DNA of 64,000 nucleotides from Aphanothece sacrum FPU1 (GTDB lineage: Bacteria > Cyanobacteriota > Cyanobacteriia > Cyanobacteriales > Microcystaceae), in contig NZ_BDQK01000013.1 of NCBI RefSeq assembly GCF_003864295.1, positions 620,001-684,000 on the forward strand, in the 5' to 3' direction. Positions 17,728-19,422 of this stretch are shown here, piece after piece (within the stretch, counting starts at the first letter, position 1; each line of letters opens with the position of its first letter). A program made the position numbers and the translations under genes. The notes beneath the pieces were generated by a model. It searched no databases. It had not been told where the DNA came from and saw only the letters and a program-made list of their open reading frames with translations.

Positions 17728-18060
17728 TCAACAGCCGTCTGGCCCACAGAAACTGTGTCCGTACAGTACCTCCGCGTCAGAGATATAGATAATGCCCGCA
17801 AAATCGAGGAAAAACTTCACTGCGATCTGATCGGCAATATTCTCCGCCATATCCCGATCAGCGGTGAGTACCTCGAACTTTATATTCGCCTGGGTGTCGG
17901 AAACGCTGGGTTGTCCCGACGAGCGCACGTTGCGACTGCCTTTACCGCCAGTCTCCACCACCGTATAACCGGTCGCCCCGGATTCATCGATGATATGGGC
18001 GATCTTTTTCAGGAGAACCTTTTCTGTGATTATGACGAGCTTTTTAGCTGGTTTAGCCAT
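17728..18060 (-). CDS. sbtB: SbtB, PII-like regulator of SbtA
   Basis: This 110-residue PII-like protein binds adenine nucleotides (cAMP, AMP, ADP, ATP) and controls the bicarbonate transporter SbtA. The N-terminal strand [10 protein letters not shown] and the T-loop region with [14 protein letters not shown] are visible. The C-terminus CGPDGC (Cys105 and Cys110) is the redox-sensitive end characteristic of many SbtB proteins. A strong AAGGAGGTAA site precedes the ATG. It lies 57 bases downstream of sbtA, as in most cyanobacteria. The DNA is clearly G+C-richer than neighbouring genes, a feature shared with sbtA. The assignment is secure from sequence and context. Confidence 0.95.
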
Positions 18061-18117
18061 GTTGCTTACCTCCTTACAGATGTATATTGTCTATATTGAT
18101 CTACTTGGTTTGCCGGG

Positions 18118-19263
18118 TCAAGGGAGCGGCGACATACCGCCGATCGCCTGGGCGAGTCCGATGAAGAACGGTATACACAAGCCGATCGCAACTGGCGTAC
18201 CGACGGCGGTGGACGCGCCTATATAGGCGGAGGGATTGGCTGATGGGATACCGGCTCGCAACGTGGGGGGTCCTGAGATGTCGGAACTAGAGGAAGCGAT
18301 GACAGCCAGGATGACAACGCCGCCCATGCTGAATCCTGTGGCGTAGTGGGCAACCATGCCGAGACCGAAGGCGATTAGCCCATGTAGAAAAGGTGCTACT
18401 ACACTATACACGACGTACCACTGAGCCACCTTCCGCAGTTCGCCAATTCTTGACCAAGCCTCCATACCCATGACCAGCATCAAGATCGAAAGCAAGCCAC
18501 GAAAGAGGGGATCGTAGAAGCTTTTATAGACACTTTCGGGCTGAGTAAGTATGCCAAGCGCAAGGCCGAGCAACATTGCCGATAGAGCAGGACCCCGGAG
18601 ACTTTCCTCGATGATCGGCCAGATCTTGACCCGATTATCCCCAGGATCTTGCTGTTGGCTGAGATACTCCTGCCGGTTGCTGGGATAATCTTGCTCATCG
18701 GAATAATCCCCTGCCGCAACGGCCTTCTTGCTTAAAGACTCCTGCACGGTGGAGTGGGCTGCTGCTGCACTATGCTTCTTCTTGTTGAGGTAAATGTTGG
18801 CCACAACAATCGCAGTTACAAGCGCGGGGATATCCATAAAGGGATAGAGTGCGCCAGCCCATGCCTCGTATGGAATTTTTTGTTCTTCTAGTACCGTCAG
18901 ACCTGCGGCCATGGTAGAACCACTCACGGCTCCAAACAACCCCCCAGTTGCGAGGGCATCGACGACTTTGACCTTCGGCAGATTGGCCAATGTAAAGCGC
19001 GAGATGAAGACAATAAGAACACCTACCATGACGGCAAAGATCATGGGTAACACCATCTCCGTCAGGTTGGAATTGCGGATCGCAATGCCACCGGTCAGAC
19101 CGATTTTGGTGAGCAGCATAAATACGATGATCGTACAAATCGACTCTGGAATTACCAATTCGCTCCCAAGAGCTGCAATGATCATCCCACCAATTAAAAA
19201 GGCGAGTGTTGGAGACTGCAACTGTTTAACAAAGTCTATTAAAAAAAGGGACAAAAAATCCAT
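18118..19263 (-). CDS. sbtA: Sodium-dependent bicarbonate transporter SbtA
   Basis: SbtA imports HCO3- with Na+ across the plasma membrane as part of the CO2-concentrating mechanism. The 381-residue protein opens MDFLSLFLIDFVKQLQSPTL and has about ten membrane helices in two inverted halves. They are separated by a long hydrophilic loop (about residues 163-220, rich in Ser, Gln and Asp). Conserved stretches GLFGAVSGSTMAAG and ASSSSDISGPPTLRAGIPSANPSAYIG contain the substrate- and sodium-binding Ser and Gly residues. AAGGAGGT precedes the ATG. Sixty bases within the gene (18181-18240) contain 40 G or C, against 20 of 60 at 17221-17280 in the ABC gene. This suggests acquisition from another cyanobacterium. 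sbtB follows directly. Confidence 0.96.
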   Translation of the reverse strand: MDFLSLFLIDFVKQLQSPTLAFLIGGMIIAALGSELVIPESICTIIVFMLLTKIGLTGGIAIRNSNLTEMVLPMIFAVMVGVLIVFISRFTLANLPKVKVVDALATGGLFGAVSGSTMAAGLTVLEEQKIPYEAWAGALYPFMDIPALVTAIVVANIYLNKKKHSAAAAHSTVQESLSKKAVAAGDYSDEQDYPSNRQEYLSQQQDPGDNRVKIWPIIEESLRGPALSAMLLGLALGILTQPESVYKSFYDPLFRGLLSILMLVMGMEAWSRIGELRKVAQWYVVYSVVAPFLHGLIAFGLGMVAHYATGFSMGGVVILAVIASSSSDISGPPTLRAGIPSANPSAYIGASTAVGTPVAIGLCIPFFIGLAQAIGGMSPLP

Positions 19264-19279
19264 TAATACCTCCTTGTGC

Positions 19280-19295
19280 CTCCTCGTCAGAGGAG
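19280..19295 (-). promoter_or_regulatory. Leader hairpin close to the sbtA ribosome site
   Basis: CTCCTC-TGAC-GAGGAG forms a perfect six-base stem on the sbtA strand. Its 3' arm is a Shine-Dalgarno-like purine run, about seven bases before the true AAGGAGGT site. CTCCT could pair with either purine run, so alternative folds affecting translation are possible. Confidence 0.4.
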
Positions 19296-19303
19296 TATTT
19301 ACA

Positions 19304-19422
19304 TTGACATCCTCACCGCAGTGAACGGACGGTGATTCCCAAACCTGACGATTTGAGTTTCTCCCACCCCTAACCGAGGCCGGCGGTGTAGCGGGGGATT
19401 CCCAAAGCTGATGATTATAGTA
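19304..19422. mobile_element. Remnant resembling IS200/IS605 (tnpB-type) end hairpins
   Basis: TTGACATCCTCACCGCAGTG...CGGTGATTCCCAAA is of the type seen at the ends of tnpB-bearing IS200/IS605 elements in cyanobacteria, where it forms a hairpin (CACCG/CGGTG). A degenerate second copy (CCCC...GCGGGGGATTCCCAAA, then CTGATGATT) follows in tandem. No tnpA or tnpB frame is nearby. It stands directly upstream of the sbtAB pair. The family call rests on memory of the motif, not on alignment. Confidence 0.5.

Follow-up and report, generated by a model that had tools for sequence, protein, structure and literature searches.

An sbtA-sbtB bicarbonate uptake pair of atypical composition beside IS200/IS605-type right ends in Aphanothece sacrum FPU1

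The sbtAB locus and its products

The DNA considered here, the window, is a stretch of 64,000 nucleotides from Aphanothece sacrum FPU1 (contig NZ_BDQK01000013.1, 620,001-684,000; assembly GCF_003864295.1). It carries sbtA and sbtB, the genes of a bicarbonate symporter and its PII-like regulator, between an ABC-type ATPase gene and a gene for a tetratricopeptide repeat (TPR) protein, with remnants of insertion sequence (IS) right ends directly upstream of sbtA (Table 1). A preliminary description of this DNA proposed that the bicarbonate uptake pair had been gained by transfer. The foreign composition of the pair, an ABC-TPR site that is filled here and unfilled in relatives, and the rejection by sbtA of groupings in the species tree now support that proposal. 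We consider it likely that the pair was acquired laterally, as a member of a lineage of mobile type 1 sbtAB cassettes, and that a TnpB-type element later inserted at its leader.

Both proteins are ordinary members of their families. The Sbt_1 domain of SbtA is full length and scores 300.9 bits against a curated cut-off of 27, with PDB entry 7cye (Slr1512 SbtA) matched at E 9e-201. The sbtB product aligns over 110 of 110 residues with PDB entries 6wue and 5o3p (Slr1513 SbtB), E about 2e-54; an NCBIfam search at E 0.001 gave no match. A C-terminal CGPxGC is the motif of SbtB-type PII-like proteins, and the assignment of SbtB rests on this ending, on the PII-like fold family and on the position of the gene 57 bp from sbtA. 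By homology SbtA would import bicarbonate together with Na+ and SbtB would regulate it. According to a literature summary, SbtB binds SbtA and is thought to shut transport at low adenylate energy charge (PMC8763236; papers are cited by PMC number). The Slr1512-Slr1513 pair of Synechocystis PCC 6803, which provides the closest solved structures (7cye, 6wue), resembles that of the window in having both proteins at full length. The window pair differs in its missing upstream region, its location in the ABC-TPR spacer and a composition foreign to its host. A search for BicA in the A. sacrum genome at E 0.001 gave no match, and the acquired pair may therefore be the genome's sole Na+-dependent importer of the SbtA and BicA families. 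The best Na+/H+ antiporter of the NhaS kind in this genome is only 63% identical.

Table 1. Features of the sbtAB locus; positions are those of the window.
Feature	Position	Strand	Remarks
sbtB, PII-like SbtA regulator, 110 aa, complete	17728..18060	-	Pfam P-II E 2.7e-15; C-terminal CGPDGC
sbtA, Na+-dependent bicarbonate symporter, 381 aa, complete	18118..19263	-	Pfam Sbt_1 (PF05982) E 1.4e-89
Retained 3' end of the conserved sbtA leader	19264..19303	-	Hairpin CTCCTC-TGAC-GAGGAG (19280-19295); Shine-Dalgarno AAGGAGG
Inner IS200/IS605 (TnpB) right-end remnant, tnpB missing	19304..19355	-	Ends in TGTCAA (19309-19304), next to the sbtA leader
Outer IS200/IS605-like right-end remnant, tandem to the inner	19356..19421	-	28-nt repeat
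Left flank, ABC-type ATPase gene (native)	17049..17679, start ATG 17679	-	Pfam ABC_tran (longer frame)
Right flank, Sll0314-type TPR gene (native)	19523..20449	+	NCBIfam TPR_sll0314 E 1e-113

A composition island in the host genome

The GC content of sbtB is 51.4% and that of sbtA 52.3%, about 52% over 17728-19263, with GC at third codon positions (GC3) of 0.58-0.59. The genome mean is 36.9%, taken from a 744-kb sample (the window and 34 stretches of 20 kb) of 4.49 Mb. Among the neighbours the ABC gene has 42.9% GC, each outer spacer 33% and the TPR gene 39.9%. In the preliminary description 40 of 60 bases were counted as G or C at 18181-18240 and 20 of 60 at 17221-17280; these counts are exact. 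The contrast it described by eye across both genes is also confirmed, with limits at the sbtB stop on one side and, on the other, in the hairpin stretch (58% GC) upstream of sbtA.

The sliding-window and codon-usage analyses that it had suggested agree. Half-overlapping windows of 500 bp numbered 2941, and the four richest in GC fall on sbtAB (up to 0.544; best elsewhere 0.494); of the 934 windows of 1500 bp the two richest fall there as well (up to 0.502; best elsewhere 0.471). In a reference set of 528 open reading frames (ORFs), each 120 aa or longer, sbtA holds the top position in GC, GC3 and codon-usage distance. At 110 aa sbtB was compared with this set without being a member; its GC3 is higher and its codon score odder than those of sbtA, the scores lying 4.9 (sbtA) and 5.4 (sbtB) standard deviations below the mean of the set. 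The objection that such GC islands might be common without transfer fails in the sampled genome, where they are not common, and retains some force in that sbtAB itself forms an island in many hosts.

A site that is unfilled in relatives

The TPR gene was matched in 39 of the 39 genomes searched, that of A. sacrum included. In 15 of the 19 relatives' loci examined the ABC and TPR genes stand back to back without sbtAB, their starts some 70-230 bp apart; in the other four no ABC match lay within the fetched 1.5-kb flank. In the window the two starts are 1843 bp apart. Conserved spacer sequence picks up again near 19450 on the right, and on the left the spacer stops at the sbtB stop, where homology to 100 other sbtAB loci begins (17724-17728 in 92 of them). 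In the reverse comparison, which covered 5-15-kb loci around sbtAB in 20 relatives, the flanking genes of the window, ABC included, had no counterparts except for two glycosyltransferase matches of 25% identity.

Phylogeny of sbtA and the species tree

A concatenation of ClpC, RbcL and NdhD1 from 23 genomes groups A. sacrum with genome G007 (support 100/99) and then with G012 (100/100). In the comparisons of control-gene identity and GC3 that follow, the clpC of G041 was unusable, clpC and rbcL of G023 were not entered (partial hits L225 and L273) and seven lower-scoring ndhD1 hits, likely paralogues (L243-L249), were left aside. The closest relative, G007, is 95% identical to A. sacrum in ClpC, 96% in NdhD1 and 98% in RbcL, but only 75% in SbtA. 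Its SbtA belongs with those of G046 and G055, both 72% identical to the window protein, in a separate and well supported clade. SbtA from three genomes of other families (G041, G043 and G044) is 84-88% identical to that of the window.

The sbtA DNA tree has 86 rows, obtained from 97 copies by removing 10 identical ones and omitting L150; L162 had been kept out of the copy set, as had L114, L117 and L177, each of which contains a stop. On this tree the approximately unbiased (AU) test rejects a group of the window with G007 (p 0.0013) and one with G007 and G012 (p 5e-8). The same two groupings are rejected on 18-row trees, both with protein (p 1.5e-4 and 1.3e-4) and with DNA (p 1e-65 and 2e-8). 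The comparison of SbtA with the species tree, which the preliminary description had named as a check, ends in rejection of the key groupings, with the qualification that sbtA still clusters by order far beyond chance.

Composition independent of the host

If sbtAB were an old resident of these genomes, would its composition not follow that of the host? For control genes it does: against clpC GC3, the GC3 of rbcL gives r 0.97 and slope 1.05 (n=23) and that of ndhD1 r 0.96 and slope 1.07 (n=16). The corresponding values are r 0.37 and slope 0.29 for sbtA, and r 0.27 and slope 0.23 for sbtB (n=15 each). A strong SbtA match was present in 31 of 58 genomes searched (own included); all 31 were examined and 30 had enough flank. 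In the 16 of these with SbtA more than 80% identical, four of which belong to one genus, sbtA GC3 is unrelated to flank GC3 (r 0.00), with a mean of 0.608 (standard deviation 0.044) set against flanks of 0.25-0.64 (standard deviation 0.117). Over 95 loci, mostly chosen by similarity and with about ten genomes present twice, sbtA GC3 relates to the host with r 0.22 and slope 0.12.

Identity to the window at fourfold degenerate sites of sbtA is 0.66 for G044, 0.64 for G043 and 0.61 for G041, compared with 0.25-0.42 for the available controls. Across genome pairs the fourfold identity of sbtA does not vary with the control values (rho -0.08 for 65 pairs, 0.11 for 105 pairs). The pattern fits transfer between hosts that is faster than the adaptation of composition, possibly with a share of synonymous constraint, and transfer seems to concern many cyanobacteria beside A. 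sacrum. Neighbouring nhaS genes have GC3 0.47 with r 0.36 and slope 0.29 (49 ORFs), and bicA neighbours r 0.72 and slope 0.79 (17 ORFs), so host independence is strongest in sbtAB itself.

A shared leader and a broken bicA

Upstream of sbtA the homology of the window to 100 other loci is lost between 19295 and 19304 in 67 of them, with 49 breaking off at exactly 19299; in 30 it ends sooner and in three (L125, L154 and L173) it goes on further. Twelve loci were used to build a leader model, which finds a match in 71 of 85 upstream regions, or in 59 of 73 when those twelve are set aside; the window matches it only at positions 148-183 of 184. The median upstream reach of homology is 36 nt for the window, while most loci reach further and those with a second leader type less far. 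In the leader hairpin, examined for compensatory base changes, 91% of cells are paired and two pairs carry double changes, a level also reached in 39 of 500 shuffles.

The second leader type (roughly CCTGACCCCTAATATCTGA and AAGGAGGAATTACA) occurs in L116, L123, L150, L158 and L176. It stands before both SbtA lineages, so that leaders and genes seem to have been reshuffled. In L126, L134 and L146 the leader is interrupted, about 250-330 bp upstream of sbtA, by an insert with a repeated leader segment on its flanks, and L191 has two leader copies. Beyond about -40 the shared leader is gone from the window, so the transcription start must lie within the IS remnant, farther upstream than it, or barely within the short leader. 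A scan of 19200-19600 with the sigma-70 consensus found no site where 0.7 were expected, and an Rfam search of 17600-19600 up to E 5 returned no family.

At other loci the leader is often preceded by part of bicA. Of 85 upstream regions, 30 contain such sequence. In four it is the 3' end of a bicA that is intact; the other 26 have a 5' piece. Breakpoints were mapped at the DNA level in 22 loci, chosen because bicA pieces had already been observed upstream of sbtA: the piece ends at nt 221 in 14, within 4 nt of it in four more and earlier in four. The 14 cut at nt 221 ahead of the leader are L113, L125, L134, L141, L145, L146, L147, L152, L161, L163, L171, L183, L184 and L194. The 18 loci at or near nt 221 fall in the Nostocales (12), Leptolyngbyales (2) and Oscillatoriales (2), with two unplaced; some order labels of loci derive from binned genomes. 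Protein matches of several of these 18 pieces need more than one frame. Two contigs labelled Gracilibacteria and Chloroflexaceae (L129 and L158) also bear cyanobacterial-type sbtAB and are probably misbinned.

Later parts of bicA lie at most 300 bp from sbtB in nine of 84 downstream regions, and L163 has bicA 1-98 before sbtAB and 447-551 after it. Within 3 kb of sbtAB a Na+/H+ antiporter gene (PF00999) is present at 52 of 87 loci and BicA ORFs at 20 of 87. The pieces and neighbours together indicate that the place of sbtAB is often within or next to a broken bicA, or else a locus of bicA and nhaS. In G007 nhaS (691-2049) and bicA (2308-3948) are adjacent, with no sbtAB between them. No bicA piece was found near the window pair.

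Strains of Microcystis with sbtA have been described in which bicA is absent or incomplete beside it (PMC4840274), and the bicA/sbtA genotypes of that genus (PMC4840274, PMC5853874) are similar to the present loci in that gene content switches at one locus. What differs here is a breakpoint at nt 221 common to loci of Nostocales, Leptolyngbyales and Oscillatoriales; the bicA pieces of two Microcystis loci end earlier, at nt 110-113. The window is distinct again, with neither a bicA piece nor bicA.

Right-end remnants of TnpB-type elements

The two degenerate tandem hairpins noted upstream of sbtA in the preliminary description are real in the form of a 28-nt direct repeat, 82% identical, with copies 63 nt apart (19331-19358 and 19394-19421). 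Taken singly, the hairpins fold not clearly better than shuffles (RNA z -1.6 and 0.15; DNA z -1.5 and -0.8). Their likeness to ends of tnpB-type elements holds well for the inner copy, which is 82% identical over 49 nt to a right end at C1:9801-9850, near a decayed tnpB of the same genome (E 2e-4). For the outer copy it is weak, with 95% over 21 nt to the ends of a resident seven-copy tnpB family (E 0.03). The members of that family have a tnpB of 378 codons, and their left and right hairpins are alike (L043-L049, contigs C3, C13, C16 and C17 of the A. sacrum assembly, G000). Its right end stops at TGTCAA in all seven copies, and the flanks diverge directly after this hexamer. A 42-nt match of 19405-19445 to C13:693807-693848 was rejected as an element copy, there being no element end at that place.

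In the window TGTCAA (19309-19304) is followed directly by TGTAAATACTCC, the start of the sbtA leader, which reads TGCAATACTCC in other loci. The inner copy thus has a subterminal hairpin and then TCAA at the boundary; the outer copy has no readable TCAA end. No OrfB_IS605 match of the genome lies within the window, which therefore holds a remnant and not a full element. IS608, a member of the IS200/IS605 family, likewise has a subterminal hairpin and TCAA as its right cleavage site (PMC5934647). Unlike IS608, the window has right ends only, and no tnpA, tnpB or left end was seen. Insertions of ISAm1 in the sbtAB operon arose in laboratory evolution of Acaryochloris (PMC8763236), a comparable case of an IS in or beside sbtAB; that of the window involves a different IS, with a TnpB-type right end upstream of sbtA.

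Two other loci, L125 and L154, have a right end, TCAA or TCGA, at the same leader base as the window, and L125 in addition keeps a piece of the TnpB zinc ribbon (PF07282, E 1.5e-8). A single sbtA clade of the window, L125 and L154 is rejected (p 0.0015), while the window with L125 is compatible (p 0.10); either more than one insertion took place at this site or recombination affected the upstream part. At all three loci the element lies upstream and sbtA outside its right end, which suggests that an element probably inserted into the leader and that its body was subsequently lost.

Assessment of explanations

What would account for these observations together? In the sequence of events that we favour, an intact sbtA-sbtB pair would have inserted into the spacer of the conserved, divergent ABC-TPR gene pair. 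The pair would belong to a lineage of type 1 SbtA cassettes that move between beta-cyanobacteria often enough to keep GC3 at about 0.6 in diverse hosts. Elsewhere such a cassette often has a truncated 5' part of bicA (commonly to nt 221), a leader of about 130 nt, sbtA, sbtB and frequently a downstream Na+/H+ antiporter gene, and that of the window would have been cut back to the two genes and some 40 nt of the leader. At the leader an IS200/IS605 element of the TnpB type would have inserted and then lost its body, two tandem right ends now replacing the ancestral upstream region. This order of events and a loss of function of the old promoter are inferred.

Might the element have been the vehicle, with sbtAB as its passenger? 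The right ends adjoin the insert directly, and L125 and L154 have right-end remnants in the corresponding position. The polarity of the element, however, places sbtAB downstream of its right end and so outside it, and in L125 and L154 the remnant is inside the leader and not around the genes. By eye, though not by a formal search, there is no element end in the 48-nt spacer beyond sbtB, and at that side homology to other loci starts at the sbtB stop, in the 92 of 100 cases given above. Relatives of 20 of the genome's 30 TnpB matches were absent from the 100 other sbtAB loci at E 0.001, in a search that recovered its positive control and missed the short TnpB piece of L125. Carriage by the element is therefore improbable, and the IS more likely displaced the old promoter region than carried sbtAB. 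Nor does a replicon come forward as carrier of the close SbtA type: there was none in 72,556 plasmid records (best 66%, an Acaryochloris plasmid, and 64%, Pseudanabaena PCC 7367), and SbtA was absent from 50,697 phage records, with one contig at 52% in IMG/VR.

The alternative that sbtAB is ancestral, inherited vertically with its codons held by strong synonymous constraint, draws on several results that weigh against lateral acquisition. Strong SbtA matches occur in the 31 of 58 genomes. On the sbtA tree, whose backbone is without resolution, order labels require 22 changes over 12 groups, where the minimum is 11 and shuffles give 36.1, and the amino acid identities of SbtA and of the controls are positively correlated (rho 0.58, 105 pairs). 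There is, then, much descent within lineages, and sbtA phylogenies have been called completely congruent with the core phylogeny (PMC9477826). A group of the window with G012 is compatible with the sbtA data (p 0.28, 86-row tree), and the pair could have been gained on the stem shared by these genera, with replacement in G007 and a move within the A. sacrum genome. The 14 genomes with SbtA at most 80% identical partly track their hosts (r 0.48, slope 0.40). In G046 and G055, of other families, sbtA fourfold identity is 0.33 and 0.39 against 0.37 and 0.33 for clpC, with no notable excess. Over the 65 pairs without the divergent clade the rise is moderate, 0.54 for sbtA against a clpC/rbcL mean of 0.43 (higher in 55 of 65), and with G007, G046 and G055 included it is 0.49 against 0.42 (103 pairs). 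Fourfold identity is also uneven along sbtA (0.47-0.71), and rbcL alone is raised as well, so some synonymous constraint is possible. Finally, the 80 named sbtAB loci were chosen by similarity to the window SbtA.

Yet key groups of the species tree are rejected by sbtA, and its fourfold identity is independent of that of the controls. Nothing forces a GC3 of 0.6, as the sbtA of some hosts is near host composition (G046, 0.38 against a flank of 0.34), and decayed bicA pieces with one breakpoint would hardly persist that long by descent. We therefore give purely vertical inheritance little credence; copies of sbtA intermingle across orders but still group within them, so that spread and descent both contribute. 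An ancient duplication into type 1 and type 2 SbtA with differential loss, G007 having kept the other copy, would accommodate the separate clade of G007, G046 and G055. It leaves unexplained the host-independent GC3, the raised fourfold identity across families and the filled ABC-TPR site, and we regard it as unlikely. Lateral acquisition, alongside much descent within lineages, remains the reading that we prefer.

We extend this reading only tentatively, to a proposal whose chances we put just short of even. Type 1 SbtA with SbtB would be a roaming cassette and not an ancestral, vertically inherited part of the CO2-concentrating mechanism of beta-cyanobacteria. It would have been born when sbtAB joined a bicA cut at nt 221, and would have spread over at least three orders, repeatedly replacing or breaking the resident bicA, plausibly by homologous recombination through the bicA and nhaS flanks. 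Lineages would thereby switch between high-flux BicA and high-affinity SbtA. For Cyanobium-type strains a transfer of sbtA was suggested earlier (PMC4275256, citing Rae 2011), as was its lateral gain or its loss for Thermosynechococcus (PMC9120777). The present case is similar in kind and adds, in other lineages, composition, trees, an unfilled site and shared junctions. In the portions of the literature that were searched we found no earlier report of the host-independent composition of sbtAB or of the cross-order bicA breakpoint.

Competition among cyanobacteria at low CO2 is decided in part by high-affinity bicarbonate uptake (PMC5853874), and SbtA counts among the candidates for the engineering of crop chloroplasts (PMC4275256). 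Should the pair be a portable unit with its own composition, reconstructions with an ancestral SbtA would need revision and natural replacements of BicA by SbtA would become datable events. Such natural transplants would also reveal which hosts accept the pair and which regulatory leader accompanies it.

Other observations

Elsewhere in the window a Cyano-1 RNA (RF01701) was recognized at 30036-30115 on the minus strand, with 48 bits. In the composition sample, successive ORFs at about 138-6039 of L083 (G000, C13:560001-580000) combine a high GC3 with unusual codon usage; they include the next most atypical ORF after sbtA and are possibly a second acquired cluster.

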